Positions 859 to 11,916 of a DNA stretch of 46,918 bases are shown piece by piece. The notes under the pieces were generated by a model. The model saw only the letters and a list, made by a program, of their open reading frames with translations. It did no database searches and was not told where the DNA came from. The stretch is from positions 1 to 46,918 of IMG/VR virus record IMGVR_UViG_3300032676_001246; one strand, 5' to 3'. Position 1 is the first letter of the stretch; each line of letters begins with the position of its first letter. Source of the DNA: a virus. Position numbers and translations under genes: made by a program.

Positions 859-1001
859 CACAATTCCTCTACTAGTTCCCACATAGTGGTCAGGTTCTTG
901 TTCATGGTGCAACGGTGAGCTACTGCGCTACCAATTGCTTGGATCTCTTCGCTGCATTTTGGGCAACGCCATCTTTTCATTTTTGATGCTGTACGAGCCA
1001 T
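858..1001 (-). CDS. Small zinc-ribbon-like protein (47 aa)
   Basis: A short frame begins MARTASKMKRWRCPKC and contains CPKC at residues 13-16, then H29 and C31, an arrangement like a minimal zinc ribbon. A purine-rich GAAAGG lies about 8 bases before the ATG, and the TGA stop overlaps the ATG of the next gene (TGATG). Tiny CxxC...HxC proteins of this kind are common in actinobacteriophages. The cellular role is unknown. Confidence 0.6.
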   Translation of the reverse strand: MARTASKMKRWRCPKCSEEIQAIGSAVAHRCTMNKNLTTMWELVEEL

Positions 1002-1024
1002 TGAGCTACCTTTCTTAACTGTAA

Positions 1025-3322
1025 TTATATTACTGCATCGGTTTTAAGTTTGTCAAGTCGGAATACACTTCTTAAGCTTAAGCCATCACGCATTTTCTCA
1101 ACTTGGACCAGAACAGGTGTACCAACTTCAAGCTCATTCTTCACCCTTTTATAAGCTTCTGGGAATGCGACGATCTGTACTGTCTCATCTCTCTGCGATA
1201 ATTCTTCTTCTTCTTCAAGCATATCGTCTTCAAGGCTAGAGATCGGTAGTTCCACCCATAGTTGGCACATTTCGGATCCTGGGTGCTTGCCCTTCTTTGT
1301 TACCAATGGTTTGATCATGGTTACGATACCACCGAGCATTGCTTTCTCACCTTGGAACATGTGCTTCTCTCCGGGGAAATTGTGTTCTTCTTCAATTACT
1401 TCGATGTAATCAGCAAGAGGATCAATACTAACCATAGTACCCAAAAGGTCCTGTTCGTTAGCACCACGCGCATCAATCGCTTCAACGTTGATTGAAAGAC
1501 AATCGAAATAATTGTCACGTCCAGCACAATAAATACAAACAGCATCGCAATTATTATCAACATATTTTTTATATTCCTTACGGGTCTTGTAATACTCGTA
1601 CAAAGCAGTTTTTGGGTCACCGCATAAACTATCGAAGACACCACATTTAATCATAGATACAATAACACGCTTGTTAATGCGCTTTGTCGGCACACGGTTC
1701 AAGAAGTCTTCCATACTAGCGAATGGGCCAAACTTATTGATCTCAGCTGCAGCGTTTGCAACGTGCTTAACCTTGCTTAGACCATAACGGATATTCCCAT
1801 CGCTAGTGAGTGTGAAGTTGTCACCGCTCTCGTTAATGTCTGGACCAAGGACCTCAATACCCATACGGCGAGATTCACGCTGGTAAATAACACTATCGTT
1901 GGGATTAGTACGGAACAATGCAGTCATGAACTCCTGCGGGTAATGATGCTTCACCCATGCAGTCCAGTAGGAGAGCATTGAATAACCATAACCGTGACTT
2001 TTGTTGAAACCATACATACCAAAGGCACGCATATCATCAAAAATAGATTCTGCAGTCTTTTTATCGATTCCATTGTCGATACACTTCTGAACAAAGATCT
2101 CAGCTTCGTCCTTCATGTCCTCATAGTTAGACTTGGCCACTGCCTTACGAACACGGTCAGTCTCAACAATGGTATAGCCAGCTAGCGCTACACATGTTTC
2201 CATGATCTGTTCCTGATAAACGAAACTACCGTAGGATACACCGAGGATGTCGCGTAGCTTAGGGTGCTTATACGTTACGTTACGCTTGCCCTCACGCTTC
2301 TGCATGTACATCTCGAGAAGATTAAGTCCAGTCTCAGAGTCTACTGACCGAGTAATACCTGGGCGGTAGATGGCAATCATGGTGCAGAGGTCTTCTATGC
2401 TTCTTGGTTGGAATCGCTTAACCAGACTTCTAAGGGGACCTGTCTCGATTTGGAATAACCCAATATTGTTACCGGTGCAGATGGAGTCCCAGACAGCACT
2501 ATCGTTGTAATAGGTGTCCCAGTCGTAGTTCCATTCATAGAAATGACGGAAAGGTAGGGTGCCATCGTTGCTCTCCTTGATTAGATCTAATGCAGCCATA
2601 AGTGTGCTAAGTGTGCGGAGTCCGAGCAAGTCGATCTTGACGAACCCAAGCTCGTCTACACCGTTCATATCGAATTGTGTGCGGATATCATCTTGGCTAG
2701 GACTGTAGCGCAATGGCATAGCACCAATGAGTGTATCTTTGCTGATTACGATACCTGCAGCGTGAGCACTGGTGTGACGAATGTGATTGACAAACTCAGG
2801 AAGATTATCGAATAGCTTAGGATACTTTACCATCCACGGCGAATAATCCTTAGAATACTGATGCATAACATCTGCCCAGCTGGCACCACGGTTCTTAAGG
2901 TTCCAGTCATCCTCAATGATGTCACACATCTCTTGAGTGTCTTCCTTGTTGATACCTAAACCACGGCAAACATCCTTGATTGACTGCTTTGGCCCTAAGG
3001 TGTTCGATGTGCCAATCGAAGCAATGTTATAACGGCCATACTTCTTTTCGAGGTAAACGCGTACCATACCACGTTCTAGCTTTGGCATGTCGATGTCAAT
3101 ATCTGGCATACTTACGCGCTCAGGGTTAAGGAACCGTTCGAAGATAAGGCCGGATGGGATAGGGTCTACCTCAGTAATATCCATTACGTATGACAGCAAT
3201 GAACCACCAGCTGAGTTGTGGACAACTTTATTCCCAATAATATAACTATGATCTTGTGACGATACACCAATATCATAGACTGGGCCTACATAGTGCTCAA
3301 TCGTCTTTGATTTTAGCTTCAT
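1025..3322 (-). CDS. dnaE: C-intein fused to DNA polymerase III alpha, C-terminal part (765 aa)
   Basis: Residues 1-36 are a C-intein (YDIGV, block-F His25, terminal VVHN) and Ser37 begins the extein. Residues 37-765 carry the catalytic part of a C-family replicative polymerase: the palm Asp cluster PDIDID at 73-78, HTSAHAAG near 183-190, the third palm region FVKID with D231, YQEQIM, then FNKSHGYGYS and an OB-fold region around GGIVTMIKPL. The upstream half (368 extein residues) plus this part (729) would total about 1097 residues, normal for bacterial DnaE. The ATG at 3322 lies inside the end of the endonuclease gene and has only a weak AGAGAG binding site. The function depends on trans-splicing with the upstream half. 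Splicing activity is inferred from conserved residues. Confidence 0.93.
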   Translation of the reverse strand: MKLKSKTIEHYVGPVYDIGVSSQDHSYIIGNKVVHNSAGGSLLSYVMDITEVDPIPSGLIFERFLNPERVSMPDIDIDMPKLERGMVRVYLEKKYGRYNIASIGTSNTLGPKQSIKDVCRGLGINKEDTQEMCDIIEDDWNLKNRGASWADVMHQYSKDYSPWMVKYPKLFDNLPEFVNHIRHTSAHAAGIVISKDTLIGAMPLRYSPSQDDIRTQFDMNGVDELGFVKIDLLGLRTLSTLMAALDLIKESNDGTLPFRHFYEWNYDWDTYYNDSAVWDSICTGNNIGLFQIETGPLRSLVKRFQPRSIEDLCTMIAIYRPGITRSVDSETGLNLLEMYMQKREGKRNVTYKHPKLRDILGVSYGSFVYQEQIMETCVALAGYTIVETDRVRKAVAKSNYEDMKDEAEIFVQKCIDNGIDKKTAESIFDDMRAFGMYGFNKSHGYGYSMLSYWTAWVKHHYPQEFMTALFRTNPNDSVIYQRESRRMGIEVLGPDINESGDNFTLTSDGNIRYGLSKVKHVANAAAEINKFGPFASMEDFLNRVPTKRINKRVIVSMIKCGVFDSLCGDPKTALYEYYKTRKEYKKYVDNNCDAVCIYCAGRDNYFDCLSINVEAIDARGANEQDLLGTMVSIDPLADYIEVIEEEHNFPGEKHMFQGEKAMLGGIVTMIKPLVTKKGKHPGSEMCQLWVELPISSLEDDMLEEEEELSQRDETVQIVAFPEAYKRVKNELEVGTPVLVQVEKMRDGLSLRSVFRLDKLKTDAVI
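3215..3322 (-). other. C-intein segment (36 aa) of split DnaE intein
   Basis: The first 36 codons of the downstream dnaE piece encode intein blocks F and G: VYDIGV with D17, His25 in SSQDHSYIIG, penultimate His35 and Asn36, followed by Ser37 as the +1 nucleophile. The N-terminal end is basic (MKLKSK), while the partner N-intein ends acidic (DDE), a charge pairing seen in natural split inteins. Its length is close to known fractured-gene C-inteins. Confidence 0.9.
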
Positions 3323-4232
3323 TTTTCTCTCTCTTACTCAAAATACTTTGACGAATCTTTTCTTTTGTTTCTTCTGTGCATGGGATACCTTTATTCCATG
3401 CAGTTTGTCCCCTACTGCTTTCTGACATTTTCTTTCGTGATTCTTCTGAGAATATTTTCCCTTTATTGGCTTCAGAGATTTTCTTCTTAGAATCCTCCGT
3501 ATGCGGTGTGCCAGGTTTCCCAATTTTAGATTCAGATATTTTTTTCTTAGTTTCTTCCGAAACAATCCTACCAGAAAATATTTGTGAATGTTTAACTCTA
3601 CGATTGTCAGTCCATGACGATTTGATATTATCTATGCCTTCTTTACTCATTTTCTTACCTTTGTTGGATGAAGGCTTCCCCTTTTTAGCTAAAGATAACT
3701 TTTTTTTATGTTCTTCAGTCTTTGCTTTGCCTTTATTAGCTTCACTAATTTTCTTACAAGTATCTTCTGTAAATACTCTACCCTTATTAGCTTCACTATA
3801 CTTTTTTTTCATTCCAGGCAAAGAAGGATGAGTACCATTCTTCATCTTTGTTTCGGTGGTTTTATCTTGTTTGGCTTTAGATAGCACGGGATCATTATTA
3901 ACTCTTGCATTAGATTCTATTAACTTTCTAAGAATCTCTTCTCTATTAGGGTTATTTGTATACGAATCTTTTTGGTTACCACCTGGTTGTATATTGTAAG
4001 CTATTTTCCTGTTGTTAGCATCTAGTTTGCTAATCCATTCTATCTCTGCTTGATTGAGTTCATCTATAGTATTACAAACTTGGAGTACTTCTTTAAAAAA
4101 ATTAAGTTTTCCATAAAATTTTATAGCATTCACGATGGCAACCCCTGACCCATAATAGTTTGGATCATCGTGTGTATCTTGCCCTATATAAAATTTCCCG
4201 TTAATTTTGTTCGTCGTCTTGTAAACTTGCAT
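3297..4232 (-). CDS. Free-standing GIY-YIG homing endonuclease with NUMOD3-type repeats (311 aa)
   Basis: The N-terminal ~95 residues match the GIY-YIG nuclease fold: QVYKTTN...KFYIG at 2-17, YYGSG, then NAIKFYGKLNFF and the likely catalytic Glu in NQAEIEWI. The remainder is very Lys/Ser/Glu-rich, with about seven copies of a unit like (S/T)EE-x-KKKISEANKGK, characteristic of NUMOD3 DNA-binding modules in phage GIY-YIG enzymes. The gene starts inside the end of the dnaE N-terminal piece (32-base overlap) and ends inside the C-intein coding region (26-base overlap), exactly where an intein endonuclease domain would sit. The region is visibly AT-richer than flanking dnaE. It would be predicted to cleave intein-free dnaE alleles and spread the element. 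Specificity is not visible. Confidence 0.9.
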   Translation of the reverse strand: MQVYKTTNKINGKFYIGQDTHDDPNYYGSGVAIVNAIKFYGKLNFFKEVLQVCNTIDELNQAEIEWISKLDANNRKIAYNIQPGGNQKDSYTNNPNREEILRKLIESNARVNNDPVLSKAKQDKTTETKMKNGTHPSLPGMKKKYSEANKGRVFTEDTCKKISEANKGKAKTEEHKKKLSLAKKGKPSSNKGKKMSKEGIDNIKSSWTDNRRVKHSQIFSGRIVSEETKKKISESKIGKPGTPHTEDSKKKISEANKGKIFSEESRKKMSESSRGQTAWNKGIPCTEETKEKIRQSILSKREKNEAKIKDD

Positions 4233-5604
4233 AATGTTCTATTACCTCGTCATCTAGCGTTAATTCGATGGCAGGCACCCAACCTCTTTGAGTCAAGAAC
4301 TTATGATCTTGCGTACATTTTATTATCGCACCGTCTTCGAATTCTAATGAAATTATATCTTCATCGATTTCATAAACAAATGTATTAATAACCGTACTTT
4401 CACCTTCAAAGTAATTTGTTACCTTGTCACCTTTCTCTATTAACTCTATTAACTTATGTTCTCCATTACACTGTCCTACATAAGATCCAGGTAAAAAACA
4501 TCCACGGCTAGGTCCTACAAGGAATCCTTCACTCTTACTCCAATTGATGAGGTCTTGTACGGTCAAGAAGTAGCCTGGGAATCCACGAGTGGTAACGATT
4601 TCGATCTCGTATTCTAGGCGGTCTCGATATACCTGAATCATATCTTCAGCGGTATGCCCAACGATCTTACGGGCGAAGCCTTCTTCGGCAGTCTCACGCA
4701 TCTTACGTTCGTCCATCTTGGCAGTATTGTAGAATACAGGCATCTTACGTGAGCCTGGTACCCGAGCATCGCACATATCAGCAATCTCACCAGTACGTTT
4801 GATAGCTCCGTCAACAATCGAATCGGGTAGATAGCTTAAACGGCTACGAGTCTCTTCCTCTGAGAAGAGGCACAACTGATTAGAACCATAGCTGAACCGT
4901 GATGGGTCATTGATGGTCTTGCCCATCTGGATAGCTGTCATGAGTTCATGCGCATACCACTGGTCGGGCTTAGCGTAGTGAGAGTCTGCTACGGTAATCA
5001 GAGGAACGCTGTAGTCAAGAGCAGCTTCTGCAACGCGCAAGTTCCATTCGTTGCTCTCTGGGTCAAGATACGTGTGCAGCTCTAGGTGGAATCGTTCACC
5101 AAAGATCGCTTGGTATCGACCGATACGCTCTACAGCCTTTGAATAATTACCTTCATCTTTAAGGTGCTTACCGATGCAACCACCCATGCAACCACCAGTG
5201 ATGATAAGCCCTTCATTGTACTTTTCCAGTAGTTCCCAGTCGAAGCGTGGGTTGCCGTAGTAGCTACCTTCGATATAAGCAAGGCTGGAAAGTGACCACA
5301 AGTTCTCTAGGCCTTTGGAATTCATTGCCAGGATTGTCATGTGGTCGTAGTTCTCGCCCTTCTTGCCAGCTTTCTCATGGCGATTCTCGGTGAAGTAACC
5401 TTCCATGCCATAGATGGGCTTGATACCAGCCTTATCAGCTGCATGCTGGAGCTGTAGGTGGCCACTGCATTCACCGTGATCGGTAATAGCTACGGCACTC
5501 TGCCCAAGGTCTACTACACGGTTAACAATATCATCGATTGTTGCGAGACCATCGAGGCAACTGTGCTCTGAATGAACGTGTAAAGCGACTAATTTATCTG
5601 TCAT
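4201..5604 (-). CDS. dnaE: DNA polymerase III alpha, N-terminal part, fused to N-intein (467 aa)
   Basis: Residues 1-368 are the N-terminal part of DnaE. The PHP domain keeps metal-ligand motifs (LHVHSEHSCLDG at 8-19, ITDHGE near 39-44, GMEGYF), unlike the degenerate PHP of E. coli, so it could be an active proofreading-type domain. The extein ends at VGPSRG, the start of the palm motif GxGRG/SAGGS. Cys369 begins a 99-residue N-intein (CFLPGSYV, then CTQDHKF). The frame stops after DDEQN, so this half lacks all palm catalytic Asp residues and cannot polymerise alone. The gene follows the groES-like and ssb genes and lies downstream of a structured 100-base spacer. Confidence 0.93.
   Translation of the reverse strand: MTDKLVALHVHSEHSCLDGLATIDDIVNRVVDLGQSAVAITDHGECSGHLQLQHAADKAGIKPIYGMEGYFTENRHEKAGKKGENYDHMTILAMNSKGLENLWSLSSLAYIEGSYYGNPRFDWELLEKYNEGLIITGGCMGGCIGKHLKDEGNYSKAVERIGRYQAIFGERFHLELHTYLDPESNEWNLRVAEAALDYSVPLITVADSHYAKPDQWYAHELMTAIQMGKTINDPSRFSYGSNQLCLFSEEETRSRLSYLPDSIVDGAIKRTGEIADMCDARVPGSRKMPVFYNTAKMDERKMRETAEEGFARKIVGHTAEDMIQVYRDRLEYEIEIVTTRGFPGYFLTVQDLINWSKSEGFLVGPSRGCFLPGSYVGQCNGEHKLIELIEKGDKVTNYFEGESTVINTFVYEIDEDIISLEFEDGAIIKCTQDHKFLTQRGWVPAIELTLDDEVIEHYASLQDDEQN
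4204..4500 (-). other. N-intein segment (99 aa) of split DnaE intein
   Basis: The segment starts at Cys369 of the upstream dnaE piece. Block A is CFLPGSYV. Block B is IKCTQDHKFLTQRGW with the conserved T-x-x-H. It ends in ELTLDDEVIEHYASLQDDEQN-stop with no endonuclease domain, so the intein is split at the usual endonuclease insertion point. All residues needed for the first splicing steps appear to be present. Confidence 0.9.
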
Positions 5605-5704
5605 GATTCAACCTTACTATATGGAGGAGGAAGCAGCCTATCCTAGACTTCAGCTACTTCACGGGCGTTGGAAGGGGATACCAGGACCCGAAACTTAATG
5701 CAAA
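5605..5704 (-). promoter_or_regulatory. Structured spacer / 5' leader before dnaE
   Basis: This 100-base non-coding stretch lies between the groES-like stop and the dnaE start. On the minus strand GAAGTAGC (5653-5660) can pair with GCTGCTTC (5630-5637), with one G-U pair, around a 15-base loop. Upstream of that CGGG and CCCG can close a second fold. AAGGTTG lies just before the dnaE ATG. No clear promoter hexamers were found. It may control dnaE translation, but that is inference. Confidence 0.4.
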
Positions 5705-5995
5705 CTAGTTTTCTACAATAGCAAGAATGTGGTCAGAAAGGAAGACAAGATAGTCTTCATCCTCGATCACAATCTTCTGCGCAGAACGCTTGCTAAATAC
5801 TACTGTATCACCAACACTAATGCCAGTAGGCAGCAGGGTGCCATTACTGGTAACTCTACCAGGACCTACGGCAACCACAACACCAGTTTCTGGCATGGCA
5901 GCAGCTGAATCAGGGATGTAAAGGCCACTCTCAGTGGTTTCTTCTACCTGTGCAATCTTAATTACTACTTTATCTTCTAGTACAGTAAACGACAT
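5705..5995 (-). CDS. GroES-like co-chaperonin (96 aa)
   Basis: The sequence follows the GroES/Cpn10 pattern: DKVVIKIAQVEETTESGLYIPDSA at the N-terminus, VVVAVGPGRV in the middle, and SVGDTVVFSK followed by EDEDYLVFLSDHILAIVE at the C-terminus. Length (96) is typical. The start was placed at the ATG at 5995 because AAGGA sits 6-7 bases upstream; the open frame further upstream encodes a hairpin rather than conserved protein. Phage co-chaperonins such as T4 gp31 redirect host GroEL to fold phage capsid protein, which is a plausible role here. No GroEL gene is in the window. Confidence 0.85.
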   Translation of the reverse strand: MSFTVLEDKVVIKIAQVEETTESGLYIPDSAAAMPETGVVVAVGPGRVTSNGTLLPTGISVGDTVVFSKRSAQKIVIEDEDYLVFLSDHILAIVEN

Positions 5996-6018
5996 ATTCA
6001 TTCCTTTTGTTTTGGTAA

Positions 6019-6096
6019 CTAGCATACCCAGAGCGCAACGATCGCTTATGGTGTGCACTCTGGGCATACTAGCTGGGTTTTGCTTGTGGAAGCAAA
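6019..6096 (-). promoter_or_regulatory. Double RNA hairpin in ssb-groES intergenic region
   Basis: Immediately after the ssb stop, TTTGCTT and AAGCAAA (6079-6096) form a 7-bp stem with a CCAC loop. It is followed by a long stem between 6054-6072 and 6019-6037: 19 consecutive pairs in the minus-strand RNA, using a few G-U pairs, with a 16-base loop. No U-run follows, so it is not a classical terminator. It could be an RNase III processing site, an mRNA stabiliser or a translation switch for the groES-like gene. Confidence 0.6.
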
Positions 6097-6098
6097 CG

Positions 6099-6932
6099 TT
6101 ATGCCTGAGCTGCTAGCTTACGCTGCAAACGCTCTGCGGTGGTTTCTTCCTCAATGGATACGTAGTCATCCTCTGCGTACTCTTCTTCAACAGCCATTGC
6201 TGGTGCGGAGTAATTGCTGGAGCTAGATGGCTTCTTATCCATCTTATCCTTAACAATACCACGGATCTTCGCGTCGTAGTACTCGGCTGAACCAATACGC
6301 TTGAGGTAGGCCTCAAGGTCTGGTACAAACTTCTCGTAACGGCTGTCCATGTTGGCGATTTCCTTCTCAGGTTGGGCGAATGCCATGTACGTGGTGTCAG
6401 TACCAGCACCTTGTCGCATAATCTCGATTTCACGATCACGAAGTGACCCATACTTCTCGGAGATAACAGCAATCTGATTCCAGAAGTTTCGCATACCCTG
6501 TGAGACGATGCCGACATAAGGACGCTTCTTGATGACAGTCTTACCGTCTACCACGTCTTCGTACTCTTCAGTAACATCACGGTAGCCAGTGGTCTTACCA
6601 TTTTCCTTAACTTCTTCACGAAGTACGGCAATGCCATAACCAACATCACGACGGTACGCACCAGGGGTGCCCTTCTCACGAGCACAAAGCTCACAAGACT
6701 CTTCGAACGCACTACGGCAGACGAAAGCTGTCGTCTTACCGTCGAAGGTAGGGACCTTGTCATGCACTGGCACGACGTAGATGTCGTTGGAATCCGTCAG
6801 GAATCGCAGAGCCTTTGTCTCTGTAGACCGCCAATAGAACCACTTAGTCTGCTCATACGTTCGAGGGCCTTGACTCTGTTGTGAACGTTCAATACTGGCT
6901 TTTACGGCAGCCATGCCTTTTTGCAACGCCAT
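6099..6932 (-). CDS. Single-stranded DNA-binding protein, gp32-like (277 aa)
   Basis: The protein has a potential zinc site H57-x14-C72-x7-C80-x2-C83, close in spacing to the His-Cys3 site of T4 gp32, in a region with aromatic and basic residues (KWFYWRSTE) suited to binding ssDNA. A basic N-terminus (QKGMAAVKASIERS) resembles the cooperativity segment of gp32-type proteins, and an acidic stretch near the C-terminus (EEEYAEDDYVSIEEE) resembles the protein-interaction tail. It lies between primase and the polymerase genes. The assignment rests on this architecture and context, not on strong sequence identity. Confidence 0.65.
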   Translation of the reverse strand: MALQKGMAAVKASIERSQQSQGPRTYEQTKWFYWRSTETKALRFLTDSNDIYVVPVHDKVPTFDGKTTAFVCRSAFEESCELCAREKGTPGAYRRDVGYGIAVLREEVKENGKTTGYRDVTEEYEDVVDGKTVIKKRPYVGIVSQGMRNFWNQIAVISEKYGSLRDREIEIMRQGAGTDTTYMAFAQPEKEIANMDSRYEKFVPDLEAYLKRIGSAEYYDAKIRGIVKDKMDKKPSSSSNYSAPAMAVEEEYAEDDYVSIEEETTAERLQRKLAAQA

Positions 6933-6948
6933 TAGTTTATCTTTCTAT

Positions 6949-6964
6949 TAAAAGCCCTAGGGCT
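6949..6964 (-). terminator. Possible weak terminator between primase and ssb
   Basis: The palindrome AGCCCTAGGGCT on the minus strand is followed directly by TTTTAATAG. The stem is short (4-5 bp), so this may be a weak terminator or attenuator between the primase gene and ssb. The rest of the 82-base spacer is AT-rich, with no convincing promoter. Confidence 0.35.
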
Positions 6965-7014
6965 GTATGTATTTTATTATTTTGTTGTTGTACTGCATCT
7001 TCAATAGTAGCAGC

Positions 7015-8019
7015 TTAACTGCTGTAAGTCAAGCAGTGTTTTAACTGATACTCAAAAGAATTTACTGAAGCGGGTATAACATCTAGCGTAGCAGGATCTT
7101 CATCATCGGGGGTCTCAATTATAGATAATTTCGTATAACTCCCTAAACTCTCTATAAGATGACTCGTGGCCATACGACCAGGGGCGTCACCATCCATAAA
7201 GATAATCACCCGAGAGAAATTACGTAGCAAAGCGAGTTGGCTAGCATCAACTTTTGCGCCGAATGTTGCTACGACGTTATCAATACCCCGACTTTTCATC
7301 ACAAGGACGCTCATTGGGCTCTCAACAACGTACACCTCATCGTGCAAGATTGCATTATCCAAATTAAACAGCCATGCACCTCGAGGGAAACCCTTAGAGT
7401 TCCTGTACTTGGGAATTCCTTGAATATCTTGTAGCTTACGTGCTACCCATCCAACTAGTTGACCTTTCATGAAATGTGGTATTACAACCCTATCGACAGC
7501 AACCATCCGCTCTCCCTGTGGGGATTTTTGGACCTCTGACCGGTTCTTCTCTACACCAGTTCGCATCTCCCGTTGTACGGCCTCTGAGACCCCTCTGGAG
7601 GTAAGGTAGTCGCATGGGCCTTCCCAACGTCTAAGCAATGTATCACTGTAGATGGGGATATCAGTACGTTCATGATGGTTTTGCTCGAAAACACCTTCCA
7701 AACGCTTGATAAAATCCTCAATCGGCACGATCGTAGTCCCATTGGCTTCTCCCATGAGGATTGCAACGGCTTCTTCACGGCTTACATTCAGTGAGTTCTG
7801 AACTAGCCAAATTACGCTACCGCCCCCGCACGTAAAGCAATTAAACAATAGAGTATCTTTATTTAAGCTAGCACTGGGGCTTTGATCCCCATTCTTATGG
7901 TTGCCAATGCGGAGATGGCACGAGTGAATAAGCTCATCGCCACTCTCATGGATCTCGCCTACTCCTAAAATGTCTTGTAGCACCACATAAGCGTTGAGGC
8001 CGTTGAATATATCATGCAT
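7015..8019 (-). CDS. DNA primase, DnaG-like (zinc finger + Toprim; 334 aa)
   Basis: The N-terminal region has a CHC2-like zinc-binding site (SCHLRIGNH near 33-41, then CFTC at 61-64) framing PSASLNKDTLLFNCF, typical of primases that check for plaintext DNA. The Toprim region has the invariant Glu in VVESPMSVL and the DxD in FMDGDAPGR. The start was placed at the ATG at 8019, which overlaps the stop of the 36-residue gene upstream; open frame extends 14 codons further. At about 330 residues it is a short primase without a helicase domain, consistent with the separate DnaB-type helicase gene. Confidence 0.85.
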   Translation of the reverse strand: MHDIFNGLNAYVVLQDILGVGEIHESGDELIHSCHLRIGNHKNGDQSPSASLNKDTLLFNCFTCGGGSVIWLVQNSLNVSREEAVAILMGEANGTTIVPIEDFIKRLEGVFEQNHHERTDIPIYSDTLLRRWEGPCDYLTSRGVSEAVQREMRTGVEKNRSEVQKSPQGERMVAVDRVVIPHFMKGQLVGWVARKLQDIQGIPKYRNSKGFPRGAWLFNLDNAILHDEVYVVESPMSVLVMKSRGIDNVVATFGAKVDASQLALLRNFSRVIIFMDGDAPGRMATSHLIESLGSYTKLSIIETPDDEDPATLDVIPASVNSFEYQLKHCLTYSS

Positions 8020-8122
8020 TACAATTCTCATCCTCTTGGTGACATCCAAAGATACGCCCATGGAACATACAAAGTGATCCTTTACAGGTCTTTACATCTT
8101 TTACAAGTTCTTCAGCGTTCAT
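8012..8122 (-). CDS. Cys-rich microprotein (36 aa)
   Basis: MNAEELVKDVKTCKG... carries Cys at residues 13, 18, 27 and 34, enough for one zinc site. A strong GGGGAAGGTGAG binding site precedes the ATG by about 8 bases. The TGA stop overlaps the primase start, implying translational coupling. Function unknown; the placement suggests a role with or control of primase expression. Confidence 0.5.
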   Translation of the reverse strand: MNAEELVKDVKTCKGSLCMFHGRIFGCHQEDENCNA

Positions 8123-8148
8123 AGATAATACTCACCTTCCCCCCATTG

Positions 8149-8259
8149 TCAGGGCATTAATGAACCATCACGACTGATAATATAGACTGGTTCAACCTTT
8201 TTATAAGCTTCAAAAACTGTACCAAAACCAACAAGATTAGGTAGTTCTTCGGGGGTCAT
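8149..8259 (-). CDS. Hypothetical microprotein (36 aa)
   Basis: The frame MTPEELPNLVGFGTVF...ends SRDGSLMP. Its ATG overlaps the TGA of the upstream gene (ATGA) and GGAG lies 7 bases upstream, so it is likely translated. No cysteines, membrane segments or known motifs are visible. It is part of a run of very short coupled genes between 9275 and 8012. Confidence 0.5.
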   Translation of the reverse strand: MTPEELPNLVGFGTVFEAYKKVEPVYIISRDGSLMP

Positions 8260-8537
8260 ACTTCTGCTCCGTCAGGGTGTCCTAAAGCCTTTCCCTTTTC
8301 GCAGGGATATGGCTTCCAGCAAGTCCTACACCACGGGTCCTCTCGGTCAGTATCCCCATCATGATAATGGTATTCAATCAATGATTCGTAAGCATCCAGT
8401 ACCTTGATTACGTCGCAGGGCCACTCCACGTAATACTCGCCACAACCGCACCTATCGCAGTAATCGCAGATTGAGCCGTAATCATCAAATATTTCTCGGT
8501 GCTTCTCTCGTAGGGCTTGGCGCTCGTCTTCAGTCAT
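8256..8537 (-). CDS. Cys-rich hypothetical protein, paralogue of next gene upstream (93 aa)
   Basis: The protein contains CDYCDRCGCG near residues 24-33, CRTCW and PCEKG near the C-terminus, suggesting one or two zinc sites. The segments RQALREKH and PCDVIKVLDAYE are shared almost exactly with the neighbouring 72-residue gene, so the two arose by tandem duplication or are domain variants. The ATG overlaps the upstream TGA (ATGA). The molecular function is not known. Confidence 0.6.
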   Translation of the reverse strand: MTEDERQALREKHREIFDDYGSICDYCDRCGCGEYYVEWPCDVIKVLDAYESLIEYHYHDGDTDREDPWCRTCWKPYPCEKGKALGHPDGAEV

Positions 8538-8752
8538 GGGATCATCTTTGCTAGTGATTGGGCAAAATTCAACGCTATCGTCAATGCTTCTAATGTTTTC
8601 TTATTATCATCATAGAGTTCTTCGTAAGCGTCTAGTACCTTGATTACGTCGCAGGGGTGTGACATTGCTCCACCACAAGCCAAGCACCGCCCCCCGTCAT
8701 TAAGACGCTTGCTGTGCTTCTCTCGTAGGGCTTGGCGTCCGGCGGGGGTCAC
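8534..8752 (-). CDS. Small Cys-containing protein, paralogue of downstream gene (72 aa)
   Basis: The start was placed at the GTG at 8752, overlapping the upstream stop as GTGA, giving VTPAGRQALREKH. CLACGG and HPCDVIKVLDAYEELYDD follow, matching the downstream 93-residue paralogue. A much longer frame upstream is open but is only the shadow of the 129-residue gene. No other motif is visible. Confidence 0.6.
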   Translation of the reverse strand: MTPAGRQALREKHSKRLNDGGRCLACGGAMSHPCDVIKVLDAYEELYDDNKKTLEALTIALNFAQSLAKMIP

Positions 8753-9138
8753 GAGTGCCACACAATCTCTGTGCCATAGCGAGGTTCGGGGTGTCCGTGG
8801 ACCTTCATGGCGTCCTCGAACGAGGCCCAAATGCTGTGGGACACCGAAGGACCGTTCCAACGGAGAACGCAGGTTCCGTCTGGGAAAACAACACCCCAGT
8901 AGGCGGCAATGTCTGGCCCAAATGGTCGTTGATTTTCGTCGTGGGTTTCGCTTAAGTCGCCCTTGCGGTACACGGTAAATGTTTTGATGGTCATGGCTTC
9001 TCCGTTTCTGCGATTCGGTGGTCGGGCTGGTGCTTGATGAGTGTAGACATTCTGCCTCCAACCTTCATGGATGGGGAACCAATCACCATTTTCAAGATCT
9101 ACTTGTACGAGAGTTTCCTTACAGTGTCGGCAGTTCAT
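8749..9138 (-). CDS. Hypothetical protein, possibly two-part (129 aa)
   Basis: The first ~48 residues carry CRHC and a W...H arrangement like a small zinc-ribbon protein. The remainder (from Met49 at 8994: MTIKTFTVYRKGDLSETHDE...) looks like a compact soluble domain rich in Trp and Gly. GGAG lies 6 bases before Met49, so that domain may also be made from an internal start, or the gene may be a fusion of two small phage genes. The start at 9138 overlaps the upstream TGA. Confidence 0.6.
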   Translation of the reverse strand: MNCRHCKETLVQVDLENGDWFPIHEGWRQNVYTHQAPARPPNRRNGEAMTIKTFTVYRKGDLSETHDENQRPFGPDIAAYWGVVFPDGTCVLRWNGPSVSHSIWASFEDAMKVHGHPEPRYGTEIVWHS

Positions 9139-9275
9139 ACTCTCTTCACCCAGTCTCTTGATTTACAATTATTGCAGTAGCGAATAATTATTGGGACTTC
9201 ACCATATTCGTTTGCCCTAACAGCTTCACACCACTTACCGTAGTCATGGCCTTTTAACAAGCATTTAAAATTCAT
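9135..9275 (-). CDS. Small zinc-ribbon-like protein (46 aa)
   Basis: MNFKCLLKGHDYGKWC at the N-terminus and YCNNCKSRDW at the C-terminus give a CxnC...CxxC pattern typical of small phage zinc ribbons. GGAGAG precedes the ATG by about 6 bases and the TGA overlaps the next start. The role is unknown. Confidence 0.55.
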   Translation of the reverse strand: MNFKCLLKGHDYGKWCEAVRANEYGEVPIIIRYCNNCKSRDWVKRV

Positions 9276-9300
9276 AGTTTCTCTCCGAGTTTAAAGCAGT

Positions 9301-9729
9301 TCATGGTACAAGGATTTCATCTGGCCAGACGTAGGGAAGATCATTTGCTTCATCCCAAAATTGATTATAATGTTCAGGCAGCTTGCGTGTCAAATTGCTA
9401 CGATGACTGCGATGGAATTCTTCATTGCCTAACCAATCAGGCTTTGTCAATCCGAATGGCTTACCAAGAATGATGTCTGTGGTTTTTTCTAGGCAAGTAT
9501 CTTTATACCCGCGTGAAGTCCATTCATTGCAGATAGCAAGCTGGTACAGATAAAGGTACCATTCGTGACCACGCCACATATTTACAGCTGGATGGTTCTG
9601 CCAACCGTAGGAAGGATCGAATAGGGCTTTCATAACTTGCATAGTTTCGACCCGCTGTTTCCCCAAACGCTGACGGTCTAGCGATGCAGCTGACTCTTTG
9701 AAGCTTTCATAGGGTAAAAATGTTTGCAT
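9301..9729 (-). CDS. MSMEG_6728-type protein, putative pyrimidine-dimer glycosylase-related (142 aa)
   Basis: The sequence starts MQTFLPYESFKESAASLDRQ, continues RLGKQRVETMQ, and includes NHPAVNMWRGHEW, HRSHRSNLTRK and DLPYVWP. These are the hallmarks of the short actinobacterial family annotated MSMEG_6728, often described as related to pyrimidine-dimer DNA glycosylases. A repair role on phage DNA is plausible but unproven. The family link, recalled rather than searched, supports an actinobacterial host. Confidence 0.7.
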   Translation of the reverse strand: MQTFLPYESFKESAASLDRQRLGKQRVETMQVMKALFDPSYGWQNHPAVNMWRGHEWYLYLYQLAICNEWTSRGYKDTCLEKTTDIILGKPFGLTKPDWLGNEEFHRSHRSNLTRKLPEHYNQFWDEANDLPYVWPDEILVP

Positions 9730-9790
9730 ACTTACTAACTTTCTCTACTATTGTTGCACTGTTTATCATACTAGCAGGTTTTACAACAGG

Positions 9791-9828
9791 TATGGTGGAC
9801 TAGGCAAAATTCTAGACCACCACACCCG
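9791..9828 (-). terminator. Hairpin after helicase gene, terminator-like
   Basis: GGTGTGGTGG (9819-9828) pairs with CCACCATACC (9791-9800) with one G-U pair, and CTAG/CTAG extends the stem inside a T-T mismatch. It lies just downstream of the helicase stop and before the MSMEG_6728-type gene. There is no strong U-tract, so it may be a processing or attenuating hairpin. A TATGAT hexamer at 9765-9770 could be a -10 element for the following gene, but no clear -35 was found. Confidence 0.45.
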
Positions 9829-9832
9829 TGTA

Positions 9833-11116
9833 TTACTCAGCGTTAGCTTCTTCGTACTCTCTGACAATACTCAAGTTGGTTCGATCATGCAACTCCATGC
9901 TCATCATCCAAGACTTGAGGTTGCTTCGTCGGCTCTTCATGATATCAAGCACTAGAGCTTCCTGACGCTTCATCTCCTGAGTACAGCCGATTCCGAGAGC
10001 AATGTCTACGATCTGTTCGATCTGTGAGCTAAGGCCGATATTGCCTAGACCACCACGACCCTTCTTACTCTTCGTAGCCTCACGGTTGAACTGAGCAAGC
10101 CATACGGATGCCATACCCATCTCACGATTAGTAGCTGCGACATCGGTGATTACTTCAGACATTTGCAACGATTGGTAGTTGCTGTTTGAACCGAAGTTCT
10201 TATCAGTAGTGATCCATGACAGTTGGTCACCTACCATAAGTTCGGCACCCCAATGCTTAGCCTTGGAATAAAGTTCCATGACACTACGCTCAGATTTCTT
10301 GCTTGGAGAATCGATAAGAAGGTACTCACCAAATTCCATGATCTCTTCCCGAGCATCTTTAAGGCGCTTCAACTCATTAGGAGTAAGTTCACCACGTTCG
10401 TAACGAGTGTAAGGGACACCACTGACTAGGCAGTCGAGTCGCATGAGCGTAAGCTCCTTGCTCAATTCTAGCGATGCGAAATAAACCTTATTCTTGCGTC
10501 GTGCTGCCTCTAGTGCGATTACTGATCCAACCCATGACTTACCAACGTTTGGGATACCAACGACCACGGCAAGCTCACCCTTGCGGATCCCATACATGTG
10601 GTCATTAAGAGCATCCCAGCCAAGATAAATGCCTTTCTTATCCTTTGTAGGGTTAGCAACTTCATCCATGTATTGGTTAACACGGCGGTCATAACCTTCG
10701 CCATAGATTTCAATACGTGCACGGGTGCTAGTGTCACTCTGGATTCTTGAAAGGTTACTTAAAGCGATCGAGATGCCTTCTTCAGGGTCCTTATCCAAAG
10801 CGTTAGCTGCTTGTAGTAATGCGCCCTGAGCAGTTGACTTACGGTATTTTGTCACCATTTCTTCGATGAGTACACCAACAAGGTATTCCTCTTCTGGCCA
10901 GTCATGACGATCAAAATAATCATCAAACTTTGTCTCTAGGAAATCTTGTGTCACCGTCTGCTTGAATTCACTGCGGACGTAGTAATCAAGGCTGTAGTCA
11001 AACAGCTCCCGGATTCCTACATCGAAAAAGTGCTCACTACGAATACCTTGGTCCCAAATCTTTTGAAAGCTCTCTAGGTTGGTGAAATGCTTTATAAGGC
11101 TGCGTTCAATATCCAT
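9833..11116 (-). CDS. dnaB: Replicative DNA helicase, DnaB/RecA-fold (427 aa)
   Basis: An N-terminal helical domain (about 1-130) is followed by a RecA-type ATPase core. The Walker A motif is GIPNVGKS at 187-194, the Walker B-like segment is ELMVGDQLSWI, and a conserved DnaB-type segment is QIEQIVDIALGIG. The order linker, Walker A, KVYFASLELS fits DnaB-family 5'-3' hexameric helicases. The gene directly follows the loader gene with a TAATG overlap, the usual partner arrangement. Membership of the DnaB/T4 gp41 superfamily is clear; the specific subfamily is not. Confidence 0.88.
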   Translation of the reverse strand: MDIERSLIKHFTNLESFQKIWDQGIRSEHFFDVGIRELFDYSLDYYVRSEFKQTVTQDFLETKFDDYFDRHDWPEEEYLVGVLIEEMVTKYRKSTAQGALLQAANALDKDPEEGISIALSNLSRIQSDTSTRARIEIYGEGYDRRVNQYMDEVANPTKDKKGIYLGWDALNDHMYGIRKGELAVVVGIPNVGKSWVGSVIALEAARRKNKVYFASLELSKELTLMRLDCLVSGVPYTRYERGELTPNELKRLKDAREEIMEFGEYLLIDSPSKKSERSVMELYSKAKHWGAELMVGDQLSWITTDKNFGSNSNYQSLQMSEVITDVAATNREMGMASVWLAQFNREATKSKKGRGGLGNIGLSSQIEQIVDIALGIGCTQEMKRQEALVLDIMKSRRSNLKSWMMSMELHDRTNLSIVREYEEANAE

Positions 11117-11916
11117 TACAAAATCTTTCTTACTTGTCCGGTCTTAATCTCATCTAGAGTACGGTTTCTTGCATACTCACGGTAGTCGATACCTTCCATG
11201 TTGTGAACGATCATACGCTCTTTCAACAATGAGAAAATAGCACTACCGTATCCCTCGTTCAATTCTTCAATCGTCATATTCGTGGTGATGAATGTTGGTC
11301 GGTTATCGAGCGCACGCTGACGAAGCACGTGGTCGAATGTTGCTTCACTAAGATTGTTTTTGGTTCGGAATTCCTTGCCAATGTCATCTAAGAAGAATAC
11401 ATCACTCTTTACTACCTTGCTCTCGAAACGAGCCTTGTCCTCATTGCTTCCCCAACCACGGGTGAACTCGTCAACCATTTGGGTGAAGGTAGCGAAGTAC
11501 ACCTTGTAGCCTAGCTTAACCAATTCTTTAGCGATAAGACTAGTAAGGAGTGTCTTGCCGGTTCCCCATGAACCATGGTACAAGCATCCCATACCACCCT
11601 TGACGAATTCCTTGTGCTGACCTAGGTAAATACGAGCGAGGTCCGATGCCTTCTCATCACCGTGGAAGTCTTCCCAGCTTAGCTTCTGATAATTCAAACC
11701 AATGCCTGCACGCAGGTAGTGCTTATAAAGCTGTAGCTGAATCTTGCAATCGCCACATGATCGATCTTCGCACGTGGGGCAACCACGCTTATTGAAGGTC
11801 TCAAACTGTGGGTACTTTAATGCTAGGTAGTCGATCTCATCATCGTCTAGGAAATCATACTTGAGATTGACATAATCCTTCTGCCAATCAAACATTGAAT
11901 CGTTTAAGGAAATCAT
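11116..11916 (-). CDS. DnaC-like helicase loader, AAA+ ATPase (266 aa)
   Basis: A Cys cluster C46-C49-C54-C57 (CPTCEDRSCGDC) gives an N-terminal zinc site, followed by an AAA+ core with Walker A GSWGTGKT at 115-122 and Walker B VFFLDDIG at 173-180, then THxTTN-like sensor segment FITTNMTIEEL. This is the IstB/DnaC architecture. The loader would deliver the adjacent DnaB-type helicase to DNA. The gene overlaps the preceding gene by about 29 bases. Confidence 0.85.
   Translation of the reverse strand: MISLNDSMFDWQKDYVNLKYDFLDDDEIDYLALKYPQFETFNKRGCPTCEDRSCGDCKIQLQLYKHYLRAGIGLNYQKLSWEDFHGDEKASDLARIYLGQHKEFVKGGMGCLYHGSWGTGKTLLTSLIAKELVKLGYKVYFATFTQMVDEFTRGWGSNEDKARFESKVVKSDVFFLDDIGKEFRTKNNLSEATFDHVLRQRALDNRPTFITTNMTIEELNEGYGSAIFSLLKERMIVHNMEGIDYREYARNRTLDEIKTGQVRKIL

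Follow-up and report, generated by a model that had tools for sequence, protein, structure and literature searches.

The dnaE gene of a freshwater phage is divided between two minus-strand open reading frames (ORFs), with a GIY-YIG/NUMOD3 endonuclease gene between them. This is seen in the ORF list of the window, by which we mean the whole 46,918 nt stretch analysed here (IMG/VR virus record IMGVR_UViG_3300032676_001246). The first half of the polymerase ends in the N-terminal part of an intein, and the second begins with the C-terminal part. We consider it very probable that this is a 'fractured gene', in which a laterally moving split intein entered the phage dnaE at the conserved GRG/S sequence (the slash marks the insertion point) and the GIY-YIG/NUMOD3 gene occupies the break. 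Splicing by the intein, cutting and homing by the nuclease, and the dependence of replication on splicing are what we infer from this arrangement.

All features of the locus lie on the minus strand. The coding sequence of the N-half (4201..5604, 467 aa) comprises a PHP domain, the start of the palm domain and the N-intein; its extein (4501..5604) corresponds to DnaE residues 1-368, ends in GPSRG and is 92% identical to the uninterrupted dnaE of a related locus, L004. The C-half (1025..3322, 765 aa) carries the C-intein, the remaining palm, the fingers and HHH, and its extein of 729 aa (1028..3214) begins at Ser+1. In terms of domain matches, PHP (E 1e-42) is followed in the N-half by the start of DNA_pol3_alpha (profile positions 2-66 of 260, the first quarter of the 'NTPase'/palm profile), which resumes after Ser+1 in the C-half (53-260 of 260), with fingers and HHH behind it. 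All three catalytic Asp residues are on the C-half (D74, D76 and D231 of the C-part; codons 3101-3103, 3095-3097 and 2630-2632), the first two occupying the positions of E. coli D401 and D403 according to the offset of the PDB alignment. The break falls inside the palm domain, with D74 and D76 37 and 39 residues past the splice point. The three ORFs are in three different frames, the N-half and the nuclease overlapping by 32 nt and the nuclease and the C-half by 26 nt, and each start is preceded by a purine-rich, Shine-Dalgarno-like sequence, as judged by eye. An earlier sequence-only reading of this DNA had described just this layout, with two dnaE ORFs bearing a 99-residue and a 36-residue intein end, a break at RG/S next to the palm active site and a free-standing GIY-YIG/NUMOD3 gene overlapping both halves. 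The ORFs, intein motifs, domain matches, overlaps and position of the catalytic Asp pair bear it out in each respect.

The N-intein (4204..4500, 99 aa) starts with Cys1, has CTQDH as its block B, and matches Pfam Intein_splicing (E 8e-5) and TIGR01445 (E 1.4e-4), both just below the curated cut-off. It also matches PDB inteins by sequence and by fold. A structure model built from a nine-sequence alignment (predicted local distance difference test, pLDDT, 80) has inteins as its top PDB matches (best E 5e-4, probability 1.00), including MchDnaB-1, gp41-1, Npu DnaE and NrdJ-1; on this model the N-part appears to have the Hint fold. Queried alone, the N-intein returned no close relatives, only distant ones. 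The C-intein (3215..3322, 36 aa, MKLKSKTIEHYVGPVYDIGVSSQDHSYIIGNKVVHN) gives a weak match to TIGR01443 (E 0.47) and was aligned with 34 other inteins of the same DnaE site. It begins with VYDIGV and ends with VVHN, the terminal His-Asn being followed directly by Ser+1. All the residues expected of a class 1 Hint split intein are present (Cys1, TxxH within CTQDH, His-Asn and Ser+1), and the N- and C-parts belong to two separate genes in different frames. The motif IEHY occurs in both intein parts, and a target duplication was considered as its origin; comparison by eye with the cis mini-inteins of L126 and L150 places the copies at different structural positions, and we take them to be a coincidence.

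The middle ORF (3297..4232, 311 aa) matches NUMOD3 (E 5e-23) and TIGR01453, the GIY-YIG group I intron endonuclease family (E 5e-10). Its GIY-YIG catalytic domain, placed by alignment and model, spans residues 1-85 (3978..4232), and the best of five NUMOD3 DNA-binding repeats spans residues 258-294 (3351..3461). Residues Y4, N8, Y15, G17, E63 and N80 are invariant in all 12 aligned sequences, and the only high-probability fold match to the model (pLDDT ∼96 over residues 1-80) is the catalytic domain of I-TevI (1ln0). The protein has the fold, the Tyr/Tyr/Glu/Asn catalytic residues and the DNA-binding tail of a GIY-YIG homing endonuclease. The PD...EIK motif of PD-(D/E)XK (Vsr-like) nucleases, seen in 24 other loci, is absent from this ORF, and phmmer searches of PDB sequences with the GIY-YIG protein and with a PD-(D/E)XK neighbour gave no useful match. 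With a free-standing endonuclease gene separating the two intein-bearing parts of a single enzyme gene, the locus has the arrangement that defines a fractured gene.

The same three ORFs, with 100% protein identity, occur in two other IMG/VR contigs, L002 and L003, and L003 differs from the window by 3 bases in 8.3 kb. Related phages with an intact dnaE were looked for and found, in 17 loci (L004-L020), the halves of which are 69–92% identical to those of the window. Here GPSRG or GPARG is joined directly to Ser, exactly at the break in the window, so that, measured against the empty site, the insert totals 1286 nt (3215..4500), not a multiple of 3, and the codons flanking it are contiguous in the related loci. 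Neighbouring genes for the DnaB helicase, a primase and SSB are common to the window and those relatives that were checked. In a tree of exteins the window adjoins L004 (93% identical in the stretch compared), within a group free of the intein, and the cassette has therefore been gained here, or lost in the relatives, recently. The N-extein codons of the two differ by 128 synonymous and 29 non-synonymous changes; the excess of synonymous differences indicates that dnaE is under purifying selection. The split dnaE is the only family C polymerase match in the window, and a search for family A and B polymerases was negative for the window and for its 63-kb relative. This is no more than suggestive of dnaE being the sole DNA polymerase, since the records are fragments and another may lie outside them.

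How common inteins are at this site was assessed with a DNA pattern for the junction, VHN/S-x-x-G-S, which returned 58 viral contigs, every one with an intein at RG/S in DnaE; an N-intein alignment search added more. Removal of near-duplicates left 42 non-redundant viral groups, which were classified by motif rules, making the following counts approximate. In 38 of these loci the intein is split, the other 4 having cis mini-inteins of 127–135 aa. A free-standing PD-(D/E)XK nuclease is present in 24 of the 38 split loci and a fused one in a single locus (L132), 12 have no recognisable free-standing nuclease, and GIY-YIG occurs in 1/38, the window virus itself. L137 and L221 each have an ORF with a long extension that may contain a nuclease. 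Cis inteins at RG/S are also found in Sulfurovum, Parabeggiatoa and Persephonella, with a LAGLIDADG-type nuclease or none. The sequence-only reading was right to say that nucleases of other families are the rule in fractured genes; at this site PD-(D/E)XK predominates. Its suggestion that the combination is new stands in part. Among the 38 split loci at the DnaE RG/S site, GIY-YIG is confined to this virus, but the RG/S break is nothing special, being shared by many phages and by the bacterial cis inteins; a GIY-YIG gene also occupies a split-intein break in the ribonucleotide reductase (RNR) of L256, and PolB breaks with split inteins have been published.

Several of these loci have features of their own. 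In L132 (IMGVR_UViG_3300037295_000333) the PD-(D/E)XK domain is in frame behind the N-intein and overlaps the C-half, and so looks like an intermediate between a cis intein and a free-standing nuclease. A methyltransferase-like ORF of MT-A70 type, recognised by eye, stands beside the nuclease in the dnaE split-intein break of L172 (5133..5702). Beyond an RG/S cis intein, the dnaE of both L121 and L166 ends at GKLP ahead of the PDID motif; L166 then has a GIY-YIG ORF, which perhaps lies in an intron at the catalytic motif.

The inteins at this site are more alike than the polymerases that carry them. Between the window and the phage split and mini-inteins, intein identity is 38–53% and extein identity 22–38%, the nearest inteins being those of L132 (53% intein, 24% extein) and L180 (53% intein, 26% extein). 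Since intein identity exceeds extein identity, the split intein moves laterally. Support for the deeper nodes of the intein tree is weak, so that the exact donor cannot be named. In L256, a 318-kb viral contig, RNR is in three pieces with two split inteins (4614..9377). In its first break a GIY-YIG gene (locus positions 5311..6225) stands between the N-intein and the C-intein, and the other break holds a PD-(D/E)XK gene. Taken with the dnaE of the window, this indicates that GIY-YIG has been paired with a split intein on at least two occasions, each in another gene.

In the mechanism that we propose, the two DnaE halves would be translated separately, and the 99-aa N-intein and 36-aa C-intein would associate and fold as a single Hint domain. 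Trans-splicing by Cys1 and Ser+1, with cyclisation of Asn36, would then yield one DnaE of 368 + 729 = 1097 residues. The nuclease would cleave dnaE alleles that lack the intein, at the GRG/S site or close to it, and repair would copy the nuclease together with both intein halves into the recipient, where the intein would render the insertion harmless. A broader proposal is that the nuclease and the split intein belong to one mobile unit, within which each can be exchanged independently of the other: that the split intein repeatedly attacks the nucleotide-binding motif of phage DnaE, that here GIY-YIG replaced PD-(D/E)XK as the driver, that replication hangs on trans-splicing, and that related systems need up to three splices per polymerase. 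We put this forward tentatively, as having slightly less than an even chance of being right.

A number of observations weigh against the fractured-gene interpretation. The intein HMM (hidden Markov model) scores fall short of curated cut-offs, and the C-intein is too short to score significantly alone. A footprint of co-conversion was not found in the flanks, where the synonymous differences from L004 are evenly spread across the site, so that no foreign flank is visible. Finally, the nuclease is unrelated to the PD-(D/E)XK enzyme usual with this intein and may not target the intein-less dnaE site. This last point leads to the most serious alternative, which we think unlikely though worth keeping in view: the GIY-YIG gene may be a later, independent invader of an existing split-intein break, perhaps replacing a PD-(D/E)XK gene, with its target in nuclease-less intein DNA or elsewhere, so that it spreads itself and not the intein. 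It would fit such an origin that the usual nuclease at RG/S belongs to another family, that 12 of the 38 split inteins there lack a recognisable free-standing nuclease, and that phage GIY-YIG genes are found in other contexts, a second one being in the unrelated RNR split intein. However, intein and nuclease are absent together from the empty sites of close relatives, and no relative was found that has this intein but not this nuclease. The alternative touches only the nuclease step; the split intein stands either way.

The remaining explanations concern the break as a whole. That the halves function as two polypeptides, with no splicing, seems to us improbable. A phage RNR split by a nuclease gene is reported to work unspliced, according to the passage in PMC10448857 that cites it, and the second DnaE break of L163, where the gap holds an exonuclease ORF and no intein was seen, implies that phages can apparently provide DnaE as separate pieces. 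Against this, Cys1, TxxH, His-Asn and Ser+1 are all retained on the two sides of the break in the window, and a position in the palm 37 residues ahead of the Asp pair is a poor place for a non-covalent joint. We attach marginally less weight still to a dead relic, in which intein and nuclease are inactive and the virus relies on the polymerase of its host. Sequence alone does not reveal activity, and in a fragment record another polymerase could lie outside, but three ORFs that remain open and near identical in three assemblies, together with purifying selection on dnaE, do not suggest decay. Least credible by far is a break caused by a group I intron, a frameshift or an assembly error. GIY-YIG/NUMOD3 enzymes are indeed typical of group I introns (TIGR01453), but no Rfam intron match was obtained over 1000..5700 and the borders of the insert coincide exactly with the intein ends. 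A single frameshifted cis intein is rejected by the three different frames and an insert length that is not a multiple of 3, and the assembly artefact that the sequence-only reading had allowed for is rejected by the identical arrangement in L002 and L003. The fractured gene remains the interpretation that we prefer.

Polymerases and other genes broken more than once were also encountered. In L155 (IMGVR_UViG_3300027896_004530; 2314..11419 on the dnaE strand) DnaE is in four pieces with three split inteins, at GRG/S, GVFQ/C and FNK/S, and a nuclease-like ORF in each break; three trans-splicing events would be needed per polymerase. Two or three split N-inteins are present in L180, L157, L239, L131, L142, L163, L165, L171, L182, L185 and L209, mostly in DnaE; the N-intein HMM lists 15 non-redundant multi-split loci, in RNR and other genes as well, and a few of these matches may be false. 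A break near the middle of DnaE in which no intein is seen occurs in L163 (5284..6135), and also in L131 and L146. A DnaQ-like exonuclease ORF lies in the gap, which gives the impression that the polymerase of these phages truly consists of two chains at this point. Further fractured genes encode NrdA, a helicase resembling UvsW, and the large subunit of a terminase, the last with a split intein of atypical form (L024 4669..8754, L102 5279..6307, and L046).

We regard the locus in the window as a real case of the known fractured-gene arrangement, in which the exchanged nuclease is what is new. It forms a matched set with its close relatives, which differ from it by the presence or absence of the whole cassette. 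The GRG/S site of DnaE emerges as a hot spot at which split inteins arrive in company with nucleases that can be swapped. How split inteins originated becomes directly testable at one site, where a cis mini-intein, a nuclease fused to the N-intein, a free-standing nuclease and a lost nuclease can all be compared. The site also provides dozens of new, divergent Cys1/Ser+1 split inteins for protein ligation work.

A literature search returned no description of a phage DnaE broken at RG/S or of GIY-YIG in such a break, although a paper may have been missed and the list of fractured-gene loci from 2009 was not covered. In that year Dassa et al. reportedly described fractured genes with split inteins and a free-standing endonuclease between the parts, mainly in phage and in genes of DNA synthesis; their 26 loci are said to have Vsr-like nucleases, which were stressed, in half. 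The window has the same layout, with GIY-YIG/NUMOD3 in DnaE. The split DnaE of cyanobacteria has Cys+1 and is not known to have a nuclease gene between its halves. As in the window, the Ssp and Npu proteins are DnaE in two parts with a split intein, but their break, before CFNKSH, is ∼400 residues downstream of GRG/S and leaves the catalytic Asp in the N-half. In Pseudomonas phage MIJ3 the PolB halves are split by an intein with an HNH nuclease gene between them (PMC6892783), and trans-splicing has been shown in vitro for the Aes123 PolB1 split intein of T4-like Aeromonas phages, an intein without cysteine (PMC11923092). These too are halves of a phage replicative polymerase with a natural split intein, although of family B and with another insertion site. 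The cis inteins of Sulfurovum, Parabeggiatoa and Persephonella share the site, His-Asn and Ser+1 with the window (and Cys1 wherever the retrieved stretch includes the N-end), at an intein identity of ∼32% for the three Sulfurovum-type loci and Parabeggiatoa that were compared; they differ in having one ORF and either a LAGLIDADG-type domain or a mini-intein. Phage loci such as L132, L131, L146 and L155 have the identical RG/S site and homologous N- and C-inteins (38–53% identity). Among the split RG/S loci of IMG/VR, the others have PD-(D/E)XK, fused or free-standing, or no recognised nuclease, whereas the window has GIY-YIG.

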